DNA of 64,000 bases. Source: Colwellia sp. D2M02 (GTDB taxonomy: Bacteria; Pseudomonadota; Gammaproteobacteria; Enterobacterales; Alteromonadaceae). Positions 56,719-63,627 of this stretch are shown here, piece after piece (the stretch's first letter is position 1; each line of letters starts with the position of its first letter). The notes under the pieces are model-generated. The model was given only the letters and a program-made list of their open reading frames with translations. It had not been told where the DNA came from and ran no database searches. The translations under genes were made by a program, and so were the position numbers. The stretch is from the NCBI RefSeq assembly GCF_018860755.1, contig NZ_JAHKPW010000058.1:62001-126000 (forward strand). The letters run 5' to 3'.

Positions 56719-58065
56719 TTAATCTAACTCAGCTAATTTATGCTCTAAGTAATGAATGTTGGCACCGCCATTAACAAAACCTTGATCATTTAAAATATCT
56801 TGATGCAAAGTGATATTAGTTTTTATGCCATCAATGACTAACTCAGATAGTGCGTTACGCATACGTGCAATAGCAACGTCACGATTATCGCCCCAAGTGA
56901 TTAGTTTACCAATCATAGAGTCGTAATGCGGTGGTACAGAGTAATCAGCATAAATATGAGAATCCCAACGTACACCTAAACCACCTGGTGGGTGGAAACG
57001 AGTGATTTTACCCGGTGAAGGAATAAAAGTACGCGGGTCTTCAGCGTTAATACGACACTCAATTGAATGGCCTGAGATTTTTATATCTTCTTGAGTACAA
57101 GATAACGGTAAACCTGCGGCAACACGAAGCTGTTCTTTGATTAAGTCAACGCCGGTGATCATTTCTGTTACTGGGTGCTCAACTTGAATACGCGTGTTCA
57201 TTTCAATGAAGTAGAACTCGCCATTTTCGTATAAAAACTCAAACGTACCAGCGCCACGGTAATTAATCTCAACACAGGCATTACAACAGCGTTCACCAAT
57301 TTTGGCACGCATTTCAGGGGTAATGCCTGGTGCTGGTGCTTCTTCTACAACTTTTTGATGACGACGCTGCATTGAACAATCACGCTCACCTAAGTGAATC
57401 GCATTACCTTTACCGTCAGCAACAATTTGAATTTCAACATGACGAGGGTTTTCAAGGAATTTTTCCATGTAAACCATATCATTTTTGAAGATGGTGCCGG
57501 CTTCTCTTTTGGTCAATGATATTGAGCTAATTAACTCAGCTTCGTTGCGCACAACGCGCATACCACGACCACCGCCGCCACCCGCTGCTTTTACAATAAC
57601 AGGGTAGCCAATGCGTTTAGCGTGAGCTTTATTAAGCTCTTCATCATCAGTCAATGGACCGTCAGAGCCTGGTACACAAGGTACACCTGCTGCTTTCATT
57701 GCCTTTATTGCGGCAACTTTATCGCCCATAATGCGAATACTTTCCGCTTTAGGACCAATAAAAGCAAAGCCAGATTTTTCAACTTGTTCAGCAAAATCAG
57801 CATTTTCAGCTAAAAAGCCATAGCCAGGATGAATAGCAACAGCATTGGTTACTTCAGCAGCAGTAATAATTGCTGGAATATTCAAATAGCTATCAGGTGC
57901 TGGTGCTTTACCAATACAAATAGTTTCATCAGCTAATAAAACATGCTTTAGGTTTTTGTCAGCAACTGAATGAACAGCTACCGTTTTAATACCAAGCTCT
58001 TTACAAGCGCGTAATATTCTTAAGGCAATTTCGCCACGGTTGGCGATAACAACTTTATCTAACAT
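56719..58065 (-). CDS. accC: Acetyl-CoA carboxylase biotin carboxylase subunit
   Basis: A 448-residue ATP-grasp enzyme that carboxylates biotin on AccB, the first half-reaction in malonyl-CoA synthesis. The N-terminus [20 protein letters not shown], the glycine-rich loop [50 protein letters not shown] and the C-terminal [17 protein letters not shown] are all diagnostic. Length is standard. It follows accB after about 23 bases and ends at a terminator. Confidence 0.98.
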
Positions 58066-58088: not shown

Positions 58089-58535
58089 TTATTCAATGAT
58101 GAATAGCGGTTGGTCAAATTCAATAGCATCTTCGTTTTGCGCTAGAATTTCTTTAATAACGCCAGACTTATCAGCTTCAATTTGGTTCATCATTTTCATT
58201 GCTTCAACAATACACAATGTATCGCCAGCATTTACATGGTTACCTACTTCAGCAAATGCAGGAGCATCTGGTGAAGCTGATGCGTAGAAAGTACCAACCA
58301 TAGGTGAACGTACAATATGACCTGTTAATACAGGCGCTTCTGGTGCAGCAGCAGGGGCAGGAGCGCTGGCTACAGGAGCTGGAGCAGCTGGTGCTGCGTG
58401 CATTACTGGTGCAGCTTGAACCATAGTGCCACCACGGCTGATACGTACTGATTCTTCGCCTTCTGAGATTTCTAACTCGTTAATACCTGATTCTTCAACA
58501 AGTTCGATAAGTTTTTTGATTTTACGAATATCCAT
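58089..58535 (-). CDS. accB: Acetyl-CoA carboxylase biotin carboxyl carrier protein
   Basis: The 148-residue carrier that holds biotin on K114 in the invariant EAMKM motif and shuttles carboxylate between AccC and the carboxyltransferase. The N-terminal region [17 protein letters not shown] is followed by an Ala/Pro-rich flexible linker (about residues 40-68) and the biotinyl domain (from about 70). It lies between aroQ and accC on one strand, the classic gammaproteobacterial order aroQ-accB-accC. Confidence 0.98.
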
Positions 58536-58617: not shown

Positions 58618-59070
58618 TTAGTTTTGTTTTTCTAACCACAGTGCAGCCGACTCTAGAGCATAGCTATAACCTCTAGCACCCAACCCACAGATAACTCCTT
58701 GGGCCTTATCAGAAAGGTAAGAGTGATGTCTAAAGGCTTCACGTGCATGTACGTTTGATAAATGCACTTCAATGAAAGGGATGGCAACTGAAAGTAGTGC
58801 ATCTCTAATTGCTACACTGCTATGTGTAAAAGCAGCAGGGTTAATAATAATAAAATCTACTTTTTGATAGGCATCATGTATCGCGTCAATTAGAATATGT
58901 TCAGCGTTAGATTGTAAATGTGACAGTTCAATGTGCTTTTTTGCCGCTGCTTGACTTAACTCAGTCATTATTTCTATTAAACTTTTATGTCCATAGATCT
59001 CAGGCTCTCGCTTACCAAGCATGTTTAGGTTTGGGCCATTCAACACTAAAACTGTAAACTTTGCATTCAT
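58618..59070 (-). CDS. aroQ: Type II 3-dehydroquinate dehydratase
   Basis: A 150-residue dodecameric enzyme of the shikimate pathway, converting 3-dehydroquinate to 3-dehydroshikimate. Conserved segments are [21 protein letters not shown] with the catalytic tyrosine, [31 protein letters not shown] and [19 protein letters not shown] with the catalytic histidine. The start is uncertain: ATG codons at 59070, 59088 and 59124 are in frame. I prefer 59070, as family members begin a few residues before VLVLNGPN. It lies upstream of accB. Confidence 0.94.
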
Positions 59071-59329
59071 CTTCTGAAAAATATCCATAAATTGACGGTA
59101 TAGTTCATAGTTACATAAAATCACTTAACTGTGAACCACAAATACGATGCAAGATCGAATTATTTTGTTATTGGCGAATATTATAGTGTTTTCGCAGAAT
59201 ATAGCAGCAAAATACTGGTCTAATCTCTTTGGTGGACACTTAATTGGAATTTATTTTTTTATTGGCTACACTTACTTTTGAGTGTTTATTATATTAGTAT
59301 ATTGATTTTTAAGAAATTTATTTGAATTA

Positions 59330-59881
59330 TTGGATTTTCTTGTTGTTTACAAGGACAGTATTATTAAAACATACTCTTTAATAACCTTATTAATGTTCAG
59401 CATTTTTGGGGCTATACCGGCAAAAGCCGTAGAAGTTATCACTCATAAGTCGATAACTCAGCAAAGTCTGACAACATCACAATTGCGGCGTATTTTTACG
59501 ATGCGCCAAACCTATTGGTCTAATAATAATGCGATCACCATTTTTGTCTTGCCAAGCCAACATCAATTACATCGTTCGTTTAGTAAAGAGCGCTTAGCCA
59601 TTTACCCATATCAACTTGAACGTATATGGAACAAACTTACTTACTCTGGCTTAGGGGTTGCTCCGACAGTTGTTGACACCCCTGAGGCTTTGATTCAAGC
59701 GGTTTTAAATACCCCCGGTGCTATAGGGTATGCGAGCAAAGATGATTTAATTTTATTTGCGAGCGCGCATTCACTTGATACAAAGGAAGATGCATTACAG
59801 GGAGATACCACAGAAAAGGCTAAGCCTACTGATGGTTATAACAACCAAGGAGTGGTGCATGTTATCAATATTATCGACTAG
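59330..59881 (+). CDS. Periplasmic substrate-binding-like protein
   Basis: A protein of up to 183 residues, exported (signal segment ending GAIPAKA near residue 33), with a short form of the phosphate-type periplasmic binding fold: SLTTSQLRRIFTMRQTYW near the start, LPSQHQLHRSFSKE, and the common NTPGAIGYAS motif near the end. Such proteins are usually linked to signalling rather than transport when small. The start is not certain: TTG at 59330 is the first codon in the open frame, and no clear ribosome-binding site precedes it. It lies 13 bases before a porin-like gene and upstream of a GGDEF-EAL gene, so the three probably form one operon. Confidence 0.72.
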   Translation: MDFLVVYKDSIIKTYSLITLLMFSIFGAIPAKAVEVITHKSITQQSLTTSQLRRIFTMRQTYWSNNNAITIFVLPSQHQLHRSFSKERLAIYPYQLERIWNKLTYSGLGVAPTVVDTPEALIQAVLNTPGAIGYASKDDLILFASAHSLDTKEDALQGDTTEKAKPTDGYNNQGVVHVINIID

Positions 59882-59894
59882 TTTAAGAGATATT

Positions 59895-61106
59895 ATGTCT
59901 AAATTTTTAATCAAGGTTGTTGTTACATGTAGTTTGTTGTTGTCGACACCGTTGATTGCCGAAGAAAGTTATTTTAATGCGCAAAAGTTTCAAGTACACG
60001 GCTTTGTTGCTCAAGGTATCATCGATGTTAATGGTAGTGATTTTGTTAACGATGACGGGGAACTTTCGGCAGAATTAACTGAAGTTGGAATAAATGCAAC
60101 ATATCAGCTAAATAGTAAATTACGTCTTGCAGGACAATTAGTGTATTTAGATGGCGGTAATCGATACGCAAAAGGCGCGCGAATTGATTACGCTTTACTT
60201 GATTGGTCTATTTATAATAATGACTTTTGGCAAGCTAATATGTACCTTGGGCGCTTTAAAAATAATCACTGGCTTTATTCTAGCTCTCGTGATGTTCCCT
60301 TTGCTCGTCCTAGTATTATTTTACCGCAATCGGTTTATTTTGATGGCTTTCGAGATATTGCCGTTGGTAGCGATGGAGCAGCGATAAAAGTAAGTCATAG
60401 TAATGATACATATGGTAATTTTGATATTAATTTAAGTTACGGTACTTCTCCTATTTCAGATGAGCAGGCGACTAATTTATTAAGCAAATTAGCGAAAGGA
60501 AAAGCTAAACAGGAACATGATGCTCAGGCAAGTTTTTATTGGCAACCCGCTTTTTCACCTTGGCGCTTTGGCGTATCGTTGCTCGATGCTGATTTTTCTT
60601 ATGTGCAAGGCACACCAAGCTTTGATAACCCTTTTGTTGATAGTGATTTTACCTTTCAATTTTATACGGCTAATGCGCTGTATGAAGGTGAAGTATGGGA
60701 GTTCAGTAGTGAAATATACCAACAACGCTTTATTATTGATGGCTTTTATCAAAATGGTTTTCACGATGACAATGTTGGACAAGGTTTTTATGTACAAACA
60801 CGCTACAAGTGGAACTCTGATTTAACCTTTCTAGCGCGTTTTGAAGATTTTTATCTTGATAAAACAGATAAAAATGGCAAGAAGTTAGAAGAGAATAGCG
60901 GTGGTTTAGTACCTTATTATTTCGGTTTTAATAAAGATATAACGCTTGGTTTATCTTATGACTTTACCAGTAATATTAGATTACGTATGGAGTATCATTG
61001 GGTGAAAGGCGCTGGACGATTAACACCGGTCGTTGTACCTAACCCTCGAATTAATGATTCTGAAGATTGGCAGATGTGGGCCGCACAAATAATGTATTGG
61101 TTTTAA
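59895..61106 (+). CDS. Outer-membrane porin-like protein
   Basis: A 403-residue exported protein with signal peptide (residues 1-23, ending STPLIAEE) and many alternating strands, for example INATYQLNSKLRLAGQLVYL, WQANMYLGRFKNNHWLY and IRLRMEYHWVKGAG, ending MWAAQIMYWF with terminal phenylalanine, as in outer-membrane barrels. It is close in form to the sensor-linked porin-like proteins encoded with periplasmic binding-like proteins in Shewanella and Vibrio relatives. The ATG at 59895 is preceded by AAGAGA; the frame extends further upstream into the binding-protein gene. It is the middle gene of the triad. Confidence 0.8.
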   Translation: MSKFLIKVVVTCSLLLSTPLIAEESYFNAQKFQVHGFVAQGIIDVNGSDFVNDDGELSAELTEVGINATYQLNSKLRLAGQLVYLDGGNRYAKGARIDYALLDWSIYNNDFWQANMYLGRFKNNHWLYSSSRDVPFARPSIILPQSVYFDGFRDIAVGSDGAAIKVSHSNDTYGNFDINLSYGTSPISDEQATNLLSKLAKGKAKQEHDAQASFYWQPAFSPWRFGVSLLDADFSYVQGTPSFDNPFVDSDFTFQFYTANALYEGEVWEFSSEIYQQRFIIDGFYQNGFHDDNVGQGFYVQTRYKWNSDLTFLARFEDFYLDKTDKNGKKLEENSGGLVPYYFGFNKDITLGLSYDFTSNIRLRMEYHWVKGAGRLTPVVVPNPRINDSEDWQMWAAQIMYWF

Positions 61107-61143
61107 TCCGCATGATTAAAACACACGTAGAGTATTAATTTAC

Positions 61144-63627
61144 ATGGGTAATAAAAAAATTACAGAAAAGCGGTTTGTAGGGGTTTCAAGCAAGCTTCTG
61201 ACGCTTATTATTACCACCTTACTGTTATTAGCAGTAGGGTTTTCTAGCTTATCATTTTGGCGACTGCAGGAAGACTATGCCCGATTTCAACAAGACACTA
61301 TCGAGCAAGGGCAAGTACAAGTTGAGCTACACAATAGTATTTTAAGAGCAAAGTTAACGGTATGGCTCGAGTCATTTACCGATCTTATTCAACTCTCTGA
61401 GCACGACGATTTTTCTCAACTATCAAATCAATTAAGGCGCCAGTATGATGCCTTGCAGCTGCATTTTAATATTGAAAACATTTGGTTAGCTGATGCCGAT
61501 CAGCGGCTACTTTATTCGACCGATATTCTTCCCTTTGAGGTAAAAGAAAATATAGAGCAAGTTTTGCGTTTGCAAGAGCCTAGTCACCAAATATATTGTC
61601 CTAATAATTGCCAATTATTACTTAGCTTACCTTTATTAAATAACAAAGGAGACACGGTTGTTGTTACCTTAGGTGCCTCTTTGGTTGATATGCTATTTGC
61701 CATTAAAACATCACTTAACCGCGACGTAGCCGTTATTAGTTTTAATACAAAAAATAACAATGTGGATTTAGCCAATAGTAAAATTATTTCTTCTTCTAAT
61801 ATGGAGCTTGTTGATAGTTTATTTCATAGTAACTTTACACAACCTAAGTTAGATAAAATGCTCGAACAAGGCTTGAAAATAGACCTGTTAGAATCAAGCT
61901 ATTTGATCAATGTTTTACCTTTGTCAGAGCAAAAAGAGCAAGGTTTTTATCTTGCTTTAATTGATGATGTTAGCGCCTATAGGCAGCAGAATGAAGCATA
62001 TCAGCAGCGTTTTATTATTTCATTGGCTGTCATGTTTATGGTGTTAGCTGGTTTTGTTTACTTTATTGCTAGCCCGTTCACGAAACGTTTACTTTTACTC
62101 TCTAATGTTCTGCCTTTACTCGCTCAAAAGCACTTTGACCAATTTAGACAAGCCAAATTTAAACGGCCACGCGTTTTTTCTGATGAACTTGATATTTTGT
62201 CAGACTCTGCGGTTGAGCTGAGTTTTGAATTAGAACAGCTTAACCTTGAGGTTGAACAAAAAACTAAAGAACTTGAAAACATTGCTATGTTCGATTTACT
62301 TACGGGTTTACCTAATCGAAATATGCTGAACTATCAGCTACGCAAGTCACTAGCGAGCATCACCCGTTTTCAAGGAGGGGTTGCGGTATTATTTTTAGAC
62401 TTAGATGACTTCAAAAAGGTAAATGACAGTAATGGGCACAGCTCGGGCGATAAACTGTTAATGCAAGCTGCTCAACGTATTCGTTTAAGTGTTGGTAGTA
62501 TTGATCTCGCTTCTCGATTTGGTGGTGATGAGTTTGTCTTAGTGTTAAGTAATTTAGCTAATATTGATGAGGCGATTGATGTCGCAGAAAAAGTATTGCT
62601 ACAGTTTAAAGAGCCTATTCAGCTTGGTAGTAGCTTTTTTTATATATCAACCAGTATAGGTATTGCTTACACAGAGTCTCCGCAAGAAAAAGCTGATGAT
62701 TTAATTAGCCATGCAGATATTGCTATGTATGAAGCCAAAGAAAACGGTGGTGGCCAATACCATGTTTATCATCAAGAGATGTTCCAGCGGGTTGCACACC
62801 GTGTAATGCTTGAGGGAGAAGTCAGGCAAGCACTTGCTAAACAACAATTTAGTTTAAGCTTACAGCCTCAAATTTGTGCGAAAAACAAAAAACTTTATGG
62901 TTTTGAAGCGCTATTACGCTGGCAACATCCTGAAAGAGGCATGATTTCTCCTGAAGACTTCATCCCTATTTTAGAGAACTCTCAACATATGATTGAGCTA
63001 GGTTATTGGATTATTCGTCGTTGCTTTGAAATTGCGATTGATCTGAAAGCACAAGGATTAAACGATGTTCGTATCGCGATAAACTTATCTGCAGGGCAGT
63101 TTATCGATGTTAACTTATCAACATTTTTACGTGACCTTCTCACTGAATTTTCATTACCTGCCGAGTGTTTTGAATTAGAGTTAACTGAGCAAACCTTAGT
63201 GAAAGATATGGAGCATACCATTGCGATAATGCAAGAGTTAAAAGAGATGGGCTTCACTTTTGCTATTGACGATTTTGGTACGGGGTATTCATCTTTAGCT
63301 TACTTGAAAAAAATGCCGGTTGATGTCATTAAAATCGATAAAAGCTTCATTTTTGGTATGCTGGAAAATCATTCAGACTACCAAATTATTACTTCAACTA
63401 TTGCTATGGTTAAAAATTTAGGCTTAACCGTCGTGGCTGAAGGCGTTGAAACTAAGGCACAGCTGTTAAGTTTAACAGAAAATGATTGTGACATTATTCA
63501 AGGCTATTACTATTCAAAACCTATTCCTGAGAAGGAACTTGCAGCTTTTATTGATAAACAAATATTGTTTGGTTATTGGAAAATAAAAGTAGAGCACGAG
63601 CGTTTAGAAAAACGCTTATTAAACTAG
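61144..63627 (+). CDS. Membrane GGDEF-EAL protein (cyclic di-GMP turnover)
   Basis: An 827-residue inner-membrane protein. The first helix (about 18-40) and the second (about 288-310) frame a periplasmic sensory domain, followed by a linker helix. The GGDEF domain has FGGDEF at about 459-464 with all key residues, so it could synthesise cyclic di-GMP; the EAL domain has FEALLRWQHPERG (EAL at about 588-590), with further EAL residues in ELTEQTL and IDDFGTGYSSLAYL, so it could hydrolyse it. Which activity dominates cannot be told. It follows the binding-like and porin-like genes, which probably supply its signal. The end of the gene is normal. Confidence 0.93.
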   Translation: MGNKKITEKRFVGVSSKLLTLIITTLLLLAVGFSSLSFWRLQEDYARFQQDTIEQGQVQVELHNSILRAKLTVWLESFTDLIQLSEHDDFSQLSNQLRRQYDALQLHFNIENIWLADADQRLLYSTDILPFEVKENIEQVLRLQEPSHQIYCPNNCQLLLSLPLLNNKGDTVVVTLGASLVDMLFAIKTSLNRDVAVISFNTKNNNVDLANSKIISSSNMELVDSLFHSNFTQPKLDKMLEQGLKIDLLESSYLINVLPLSEQKEQGFYLALIDDVSAYRQQNEAYQQRFIISLAVMFMVLAGFVYFIASPFTKRLLLLSNVLPLLAQKHFDQFRQAKFKRPRVFSDELDILSDSAVELSFELEQLNLEVEQKTKELENIAMFDLLTGLPNRNMLNYQLRKSLASITRFQGGVAVLFLDLDDFKKVNDSNGHSSGDKLLMQAAQRIRLSVGSIDLASRFGGDEFVLVLSNLANIDEAIDVAEKVLLQFKEPIQLGSSFFYISTSIGIAYTESPQEKADDLISHADIAMYEAKENGGGQYHVYHQEMFQRVAHRVMLEGEVRQALAKQQFSLSLQPQICAKNKKLYGFEALLRWQHPERGMISPEDFIPILENSQHMIELGYWIIRRCFEIAIDLKAQGLNDVRIAINLSAGQFIDVNLSTFLRDLLTEFSLPAECFELELTEQTLVKDMEHTIAIMQELKEMGFTFAIDDFGTGYSSLAYLKKMPVDVIKIDKSFIFGMLENHSDYQIITSTIAMVKNLGLTVVAEGVETKAQLLSLTENDCDIIQGYYYSKPIPEKELAAFIDKQILFGYWKIKVEHERLEKRLLN

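Follow-up and report, generated by a model that had tools for sequence, protein, structure and literature searches.

A predicted envelope-sensing operon of the VpvABC kind in Colwellia, with a probable non-canonical start codon in its first gene

Closest described systems

A 64,000-nucleotide stretch of the Colwellia sp. D2M02 genome (contig NZ_JAHKPW010000058.1, positions 62,001 to 126,000; hereafter the window) contains near its right end a trio of genes coding for a small exported protein resembling periplasmic binding proteins (PBPs), an outer-membrane porin-like protein and a membrane protein with GGDEF and EAL domains. The closest described system is VpvABC of Vibrio cholerae. It is composed of a porin, a periplasmic binding protein and a membrane diguanylate cyclase, and in the published model VpvA is the likely importer of a signal for which VpvB and VpvC act as sensors (PMC12456836). 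Genes for vpvAB without vpvC are described in Alteromonas, Shewanella, Xanthomonas and others, and have been suggested to form a possible sensing unit (PMC12456836); in another report VpvA and VpvB are termed hypothetical (PMC8754643). VpvC is the 430 aa (amino acid) product of VC2454, and VC_2453 is VarS (PMC12051071). In the two-part NspS-MbaA system the membrane enzyme for cyclic di-GMP is controlled, through its periplasmic domain, by a binding protein of the periplasm (PMC8079147, PMC5646818).

The original prediction had stated that no well-characterised example with these three parts was known, which is contradicted by VpvABC (PMC12456836) and by the two-part NspS-MbaA. Its proposed line from porin through PBP and periplasmic sensor to cyclic di-GMP is the same route as that published for VpvABC (PMC12456836). 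We propose that the three Colwellia genes probably form an operon of the VpvABC kind for sensing at the envelope, with a route from the porin to a PBP of half the usual size, then to the dCache sensor domain and to cyclic di-GMP. No paper on the window's operon was found among the literature matches listed.

The trio resembles NspS-MbaA in combining a periplasmic binding protein with a membrane cyclic di-GMP enzyme, and MbaA is also a GGDEF-EAL protein; the NspS-MbaA system is not known to include a porin. The two differ in that NspS is a polyamine-binding protein of the PotD type, whereas the window's protein is a single PstS-type lobe. Its matches are to PBP_like_2 and PstS-type entries with no PotD row, in a comparison of which NspS and MbaA themselves were not part.

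The Colwellia trio and its relationship to VpvABC

The three genes occupy plus-strand open reading frames separated by gaps of 13 and 37 bases, as originally described; the first frame spans 59330-59881, and the other two are given in Table 1. The third-gene protein matches the Pfam GGDEF (expect value, E, 8e-44) and EAL (E 3.8e-72) domains, and its dCache_3 match is barely at the Pfam cut-off (25.7 bits against 25.7), with a stronger match of 65 bits in the relative L217. The first-gene protein has a signal-peptide-like N-terminus and a weak Pfam match to PBP_like_2 (E 7e-4, below the cut-off). There is no Pfam match above cut-off for the second-gene protein, and we designate it a predicted porin from its homology to vpvA-type proteins, which bears out the earlier porin-like assignment; some vpvA-type proteins match Porin_4, below the cut-off in one scan and above it in another. 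An NCBIfam scan of the trio gave no specific name above cut-off except for the GGDEF domain, and no cyclic di-GMP riboswitch was found ahead of the operon when the window was scanned against Rfam at gathering scores, a tRNA being the sole match.

Our sequence comparisons used vpvA- and vpvB-type proteins together with the Vibrio aquaticus genes, and V. cholerae VpvABC was set beside these by its published description. In profile-profile comparisons the window PBP matches vpvB-type proteins (99.6%, E 1e-23) and the porin matches vpvA-type porins (99.0%, E 3.4e-18). A profile of window-type PBPs also matches the V. aquaticus PBP in the vpvABC position (E 1e-17), and direct comparison of the porin profiles with two V. 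aquaticus porins gives a weaker match (probability 80%, E 1.4e-5). The V. aquaticus locus encodes a porin (429 aa), a PBP (136 aa) and a GGDEF-only protein (414 aa), and next to these, on the opposite strand, lies the gene for a hybrid kinase of the BarA/VarS type; this order agrees with that of V. cholerae vpvABC. By these comparisons the first two genes of the window trio are assigned to the VpvAB kind.

In both VpvABC and the Colwellia trio a single operon encodes a porin, a small binding protein of the periplasm and a membrane enzyme for cyclic di-GMP, and the proposed signal route is the same. They differ in gene order (PBP-porin-enzyme in the window, porin-PBP-enzyme in VpvABC), in the enzyme (an 827 aa dCache_3-GGDEF-EAL protein, against GGDEF proteins of 430 aa in VpvC and 414 aa in V. 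aquaticus) and in location (beside aroQ-accBC, against varS for VpvABC), and the window's PBP gene has a putative AUU/AUC start. With its different third gene, gene order and locus, the trio is not a VpvABC orthologue, and we classify it from its homologies as a variant of the VpvABC-type system.

Conservation of the triad

In a family survey of 118 genomes, the window's genome counted, the porin is present in 68 (for G116 the only match is a distant one of vpvA type) and the PBP, counting paralogues, in 93. Eighty family loci were taken, comprising every porin place found outside the window and three PBP places; the 81 porin rows, less five distant vpvA-type rows (L138-L141) and one half of the split porin in L086, leave 75 porin loci. 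Counting as neighbours genes on the same strand with a gap of -150 to 400 bases, the PBP gene is upstream of the porin at 74 of the 75 (the remaining one, L128, is at a contig edge), a GGDEF-EAL gene is downstream at 71, and all three are present in the window's order at 70. This arrangement is far beyond chance, and the three-gene linkage on which the original prediction depended is conserved. In L086 the porin gene is in two overlapping frames between the PBP and enzyme genes, as a result of a frameshift or an assembly error.

The triad adjoins aroQ or accB in 35 of the taken family loci and in the window and lies elsewhere in the others; since triads occur in several neighbourhoods, their linkage is independent of any one of them. 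A class survey of 369 genomes found the porin profile in 40 and the PBP profile in 93, and among 33 class loci taken all 33 have a porin, 32 have a PBP and 22 have an enzyme that shares the sensor domain. The whole triad is also present on a 1.8 Mb Halomonas plasmid record. A porin search of viral contigs gave 25 pattern matches, none of them a relative.

Short intergenic gaps are common in bacteria, and nothing more than this speaks for a chance adjacency of three unrelated genes. With all three genes in order at 70 of the 75 family loci, and with these parts recurring in other families and in other neighbourhoods, this explanation is refuted by the family and class locus surveys and has a negligible probability.

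The PBP-porin pair is found beside different outputs

The PBP-porin pair is accompanied by several types of membrane protein. In L217 the enzyme has an additional PAS domain, in L222 the pair is found with a GGDEF-only enzyme, and in L229 with a hybrid histidine kinase. The opposite order, porin-PBP, occurs with GGDEF-EAL proteins in L282 and L283 (identified by Pfam) and L284 and L285 (by our own profile), with a PAS-GGDEF protein in L287, and with hybrid kinases in L281 and L286; L215 also has a porin-PBP-GGDEF-EAL arrangement, its porin lying just upstream (L268, the same place). On a Pseudomonas aeruginosa plasmid (L304), genes for a methyl-accepting chemotaxis protein (MCP), a porin and a PBP are in a row, placing a chemotaxis receptor beside the sensing pair. 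Scanning with two Vibrionaceae porins identified 42 loci (L305-L346) in Vibrio, Photobacterium, Shewanella, Thalassotalea, Pseudocolwellia and Moritella, and 40 of these have a hybrid histidine kinase like that of L302 near the PBP and porin; L323 is cut by a contig end, and L343 has no such kinase within 4.5 kb upstream. The hybrid kinase, PBP and porin are therefore a second conserved triad. From its association with different membrane outputs, the PBP-porin pair looks like a portable sensing head.

There are two further vpvAB-type porin-PBP pairs in the window's own genome (G000:C14:27433-28903 and 70163-71690).

The pair could instead be primarily an uptake unit, or a porin-gating or assembly unit in which the lobe binds the porin, with the enzyme merely co-transcribed and its dCache domain sensing a ligand directly. 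Direct ligand binding is common among dCache domains, and the two additional pairs in the window's genome fit such a role, as do vpvAB-type pairs without an adjoining output gene, which are found here and are also described elsewhere (PMC12456836). We consider this explanation unlikely, given that the enzyme follows the pair at nearly all of the family loci (71/75) and that other lineages often have other membrane sensors, kinases and an MCP, in its place.

The periplasmic protein corresponds to one lobe of PstS

We modelled the PBP with AlphaFold2 from 44 sequences, of which the other 43 are only 13-23% identical to that of the window; the model has a predicted local distance difference test score (pLDDT) of 84, with 98 of its 183 residues at 90 or above. 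PstS proteins rank best in a Foldseek search with this model (rows ranked under the PstS group, including PhnD and LysR effector domains, are left out here), and VIA-align places model residues 32-183 on a single PstS lobe. The matched segments are residues 79-189 of the 241 in 4q8r (Z 15.0, root-mean-square deviation 1.8 over 107 residues), 75-211 of 321 in E. coli PstS 2abh (Z 11.2, 2.4 over 111 residues) and 77-211 of 321 in E. coli PstS 9k3x_E. Single-sequence searches for relatives of known structure gave no credible match to the PBP or to the sensor, one result set being at chance level.

The protein thus shares the fold of one lobe of the PstS phosphate-binding proteins but lacks the second lobe, and the SSGT stretch of PstS 1twy, which we take to be anion-binding, is replaced: in the profile alignment the 1twy sequence TREASSGTRYSF stands against the family consensus vlpskselhqef. 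The conserved core has the alignment consensus FPYQLxRIWNKLxYSGxGxxP. On this model the protein is predicted to be a single PstS-type lobe rather than a two-lobed protein that closes on its ligand. The original description of an exported PBP-like protein therefore holds for the PstS-type fold, but not for a conventional ligand-clasping PBP, as there is one lobe and the SSGT stretch is not kept. One lobe alone cannot shut on a ligand in flytrap fashion, and the options to consider are a surface on a partner, dimerisation or a role without ligand.

The window's protein also has an insertion of about 28 residues (59741-59824), in which model confidence falls and which is absent from 24 other aligned sequences. 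Elsewhere, the PBP lobe is found C-terminally in DnaJ-domain proteins (L211 and L212), where the next genes encode 379 and 369 aa, the latter, in L212, weakly matching the porin profile (E 7e-4), and in proteins of 674 and 751 aa (L210 and L213) without a Pfam match at E 0.01. Natural fusions of the lobe to a sensor enzyme were sought among long frames; those taken encode proteins with DnaJ or without assignment, or are PBPs that adjoin other genes.

The GGDEF-EAL enzyme and its sensor domain

The RFGGDEF, EAL and DDFGTG motifs are all intact in the window's enzyme, and the alignment bears out the earlier statement that both domains have intact motifs. A pattern search of the 71 other family enzymes finds GGDEF in 68, EAL in 70 and DDFG in 70; among the misses L129 is cut by a contig end, and the others are in L104 and L120. 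The RxxD site, which serves product inhibition, is matched in 47 of the 68 family enzymes with a GGDEF match; in the window's enzyme the sequence there is GSID. From these motifs both activities, making and degrading cyclic di-GMP, look possible.

A pair of cysteines is recognised by pattern within residues 101-200 of all 71 other family enzymes, with three intervening residues in 67 and six in 4, and Cys152-x3-Cys156 is invariant in 24 aligned enzyme sequences. Such conservation raises the possibility of a redox switch, in an arrangement like YfiBNR, where a periplasmic repressor reads the envelope or redox state, in place of a diffusible ligand, and is titrated by an outer-membrane protein. 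The trio does have the same set of compartments (a periplasmic protein, an outer-membrane protein and an inner-membrane cyclic di-GMP enzyme), the Cys pair is kept, and in the same-genus relative L067 the gene 3' of the triad carries DsbD domains; the window reaches only the end of its own downstream gene. However, the small protein is a PstS-type lobe and not of the YfiR type, and in the outer membrane there is a homologue of porins rather than an OmpA-like lipoprotein such as YfiB. Triads also occur in neighbourhoods other than aroQ-accBC, and the C-x3-C or C-x6-C spacing fits a plain structural disulfide; a YfiBNR-like mechanism is thus quite improbable.

A probable non-canonical start codon for the PBP gene

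The first gene was originally taken to start at TTG 59330, ahead of which a search found no Shine-Dalgarno sequence; the start is most likely the ATT at 59363 instead (Table 1). We searched for the best combination of Shine-Dalgarno sequence and codon within a defined zone ahead of the mature start. Of the 37 PBP genes at the aroQ-accBC locus, 35 (from 35 genomes and, by a tally of genus labels, 15 genera) have ATT or ATC preceded by AAGGA, AGGGA or AAGGG at a spacing of 6-8, with the codon 21-23 codons before the mature start. The exceptions are the duplicate copy L073_8531, with ATG, and L094, which has no clear start, and both are outside the site alignment. In the 35 aligned sites there is G at -10 in 97% and at -9 in 100%, and A at 0 and T at +1 in 100%, and nothing upstream of -16 reaches 60%. 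The same search of 38 PBP genes in other neighbourhoods gave ATT/ATC in 3 and TTG or GTG in 4, while the other 31 had no such site.

Thirteen of 75 PBP genes have no ATG, GTG or TTG at least 17 codons before the mature start, and all 13 are among the 37 at aroQ-accBC; the other 24 have a canonical codon, which in the window is the TTG noted above. ATG is one base change from an ATT or ATC start. ATC is used at 20 of 36 ATT/ATC sites, unlike ordinary codon choice (the isoleucine codons of six window genes are 121 ATT, 27 ATC and 27 ATA), in a count that does not allow for genome kinship. Weighing against an AUU/AUC start are an ATG directly ahead of the ATC in L067, an ATG two codons ahead in L068, and a GTG within the Shine-Dalgarno zone in L076, L105, L121 and L127. 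On balance the aroQ-accBC locus probably has a conserved non-canonical AUU/AUC start.

The infC gene of the window's genome (L379), chosen to serve as the positive control for starts of this type, gave an ambiguous reading. Its sequence is ATG GCT ATT AAA GGT GGA, in which ATG and ATT are both possible starts, and the ATT is presumably at the usual AUU position of E. coli infC. With an in-frame ATG after the Shine-Dalgarno sequence and before the ATT, AUU autoregulation may have been lost or moved in this genome.

Non-canonical starts are described in infC and in Streptomyces sigR, where they are repressed by initiation factor 3 (IF3), and the start of sigR had been mis-annotated at a canonical codon that lies within its ribosome-binding site (PMC5472188); S. 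aureus cvfC1 has an AUU start (PMC13009471). By analogy with sigR, a similar mis-annotation could apply to L076, L105 and L121. The PBP gene is like infC, sigR and cvfC1 in having a conserved non-canonical start with a good ribosome-binding site, and unlike them in belonging to a cyclic di-GMP operon, where it encodes a sensor lobe of the periplasm, and in using either AUU or AUC. Among the literature matches listed there is no paper on an AUU/AUC start of the PBP gene.

The proposed signalling route

Gene set and order, homology, the PBP fold and the start-site pattern are established here by computation, and from these we infer the signal, the contacts, the direction of control and the translational control. 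The porin would admit or present an extracellular signal that the half-PBP senses, perhaps by completing a binding site with a partner surface, which we propose because a half-PBP cannot clamp a ligand alone. The half-PBP would then act on the periplasmic dCache domain, and the enzyme would shift between cyclic di-GMP synthesis and breakdown. The AUU/AUC start may keep the PBP receptor scarce and IF3-sensitive. A further proposal, for which our confidence is evenly balanced, is that a large marine Alteromonadaceae-like lineage has a stand-alone half Venus-flytrap receptor, completed only when it touches its partner and throttled by a selected AUU/AUC start in at least 15 genera.

Several observations weigh against the route proposed here. 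In V. cholerae the effects of VpvA and VpvB are smaller than those of VpvC (PMC12456836), and in one strain deletion of the whole of vpvABC left cyclic di-GMP unchanged (PMC8754643). Four of the 75 family pairs have no enzyme alongside: in L083 the next gene is RecC and in L087 an aminotransferase, and in L073 and L098 the PBP-porin pair is duplicated in tandem, with the enzyme beside the second copy but not the first. The same sensor domain is absent at 11 of the 33 class loci (L224, L227, L229, L232, L237, L240, L244, L246, L247, L248 and L249, of which L227 and L232 stop at a contig edge), a scan of the next genes at four of these 11 gave no sensor on the pair's strand, and in L221 the enzyme with the same sensor domain sits on the opposite strand. 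Ten scanned genes near vpvAB-type pairs comprise five sensor outputs, four unrelated genes (FeoB, PriA, glucose-phosphate isomerase and Sel1) and one without a Pfam match. None of the PBP-lobe fusions found is joined to a sensor enzyme. A model of the enzyme from its single sequence is useless (pLDDT 37). Finally, PBP and sensor distances over 70 triads, with the enzyme domain allowed for, have a partial r of 0.35, against 0.26 for PBP-porin and 0.28 for porin-sensor, none of which was reached in 1000 permutations; such a correlation is weak evidence, and a PBP-sensor contact is not singled out by it.

Features of the locus

The divergent genes upstream of the trio, which by their sequences are probably aroQ, accB and accC, are included in Table 1 for context.

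Table 1. Coordinates of the gene trio, its signals and domains, and its upstream neighbours, numbered from the first base of the window
Feature	Coordinates	Strand	Remarks
Shine-Dalgarno AAGGA	59351..59355	+	7 bases before ATT
Probable non-canonical start ATT of the PBP gene	59363..59365	+	22 codons before mature N-terminus VEVI; alternative ATT 59360
PBP-like single-lobe exported protein (predicted)	59363..59881	+	172 aa with the ATT start, 183 aa with TTG 59330
Outer-membrane porin-like protein, 403 aa	59895..61106	+	Homology to vpvA-type porins
Membrane GGDEF-EAL enzyme, 827 aa	61144..63627	+	Pfam domains, intact motifs
Periplasmic dCache_3-type sensor domain, residues 55-278	61306..61977	+	Pfam 25.7 bits, at cut-off
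Cys152-x3-Cys156 pair, in sensor domain	61597..61611	+	Invariant in 24-sequence enzyme alignment
GGDEF domain	62284..62751	+	RFGGDEF intact; RxxD position is GSID; Pfam and alignment
EAL domain	62818..63522	+	Signature residues intact; Pfam and alignment
aroQ, context	58618..59124	-	Divergent neighbour; probable name from sequence
accB, context	58089-58535		Upstream of trio, divergent; probable name from sequence
accC, context	56719-58065		Upstream of trio, divergent; probable name from sequence

Implications

A trio of genes that seemed odd can now be placed in a large class of modular systems for sensing at the envelope. Finding the input of this class, to which V. cholerae VpvABC (PMC12456836) also belongs, is helped by the many comparable cases in which the PBP-porin pair adjoins a GGDEF-EAL enzyme, a kinase or a chemotaxis receptor. 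The VpvABC-type module is known already, and the unexpected translation signal is the newest part. An AUU/AUC start across 15 genera, if true, joins very few characterised non-canonical starts (PMC5472188), and a gene caller restricted to ATG, GTG and TTG would miss it and place the start elsewhere. A cyclic di-GMP sensor would then be under the control of IF3, with receptor scarcity as part of the switch. The triad is a widely conserved sensing operon of marine bacteria that probably lets an outside signal set the level of the biofilm messenger cyclic di-GMP.

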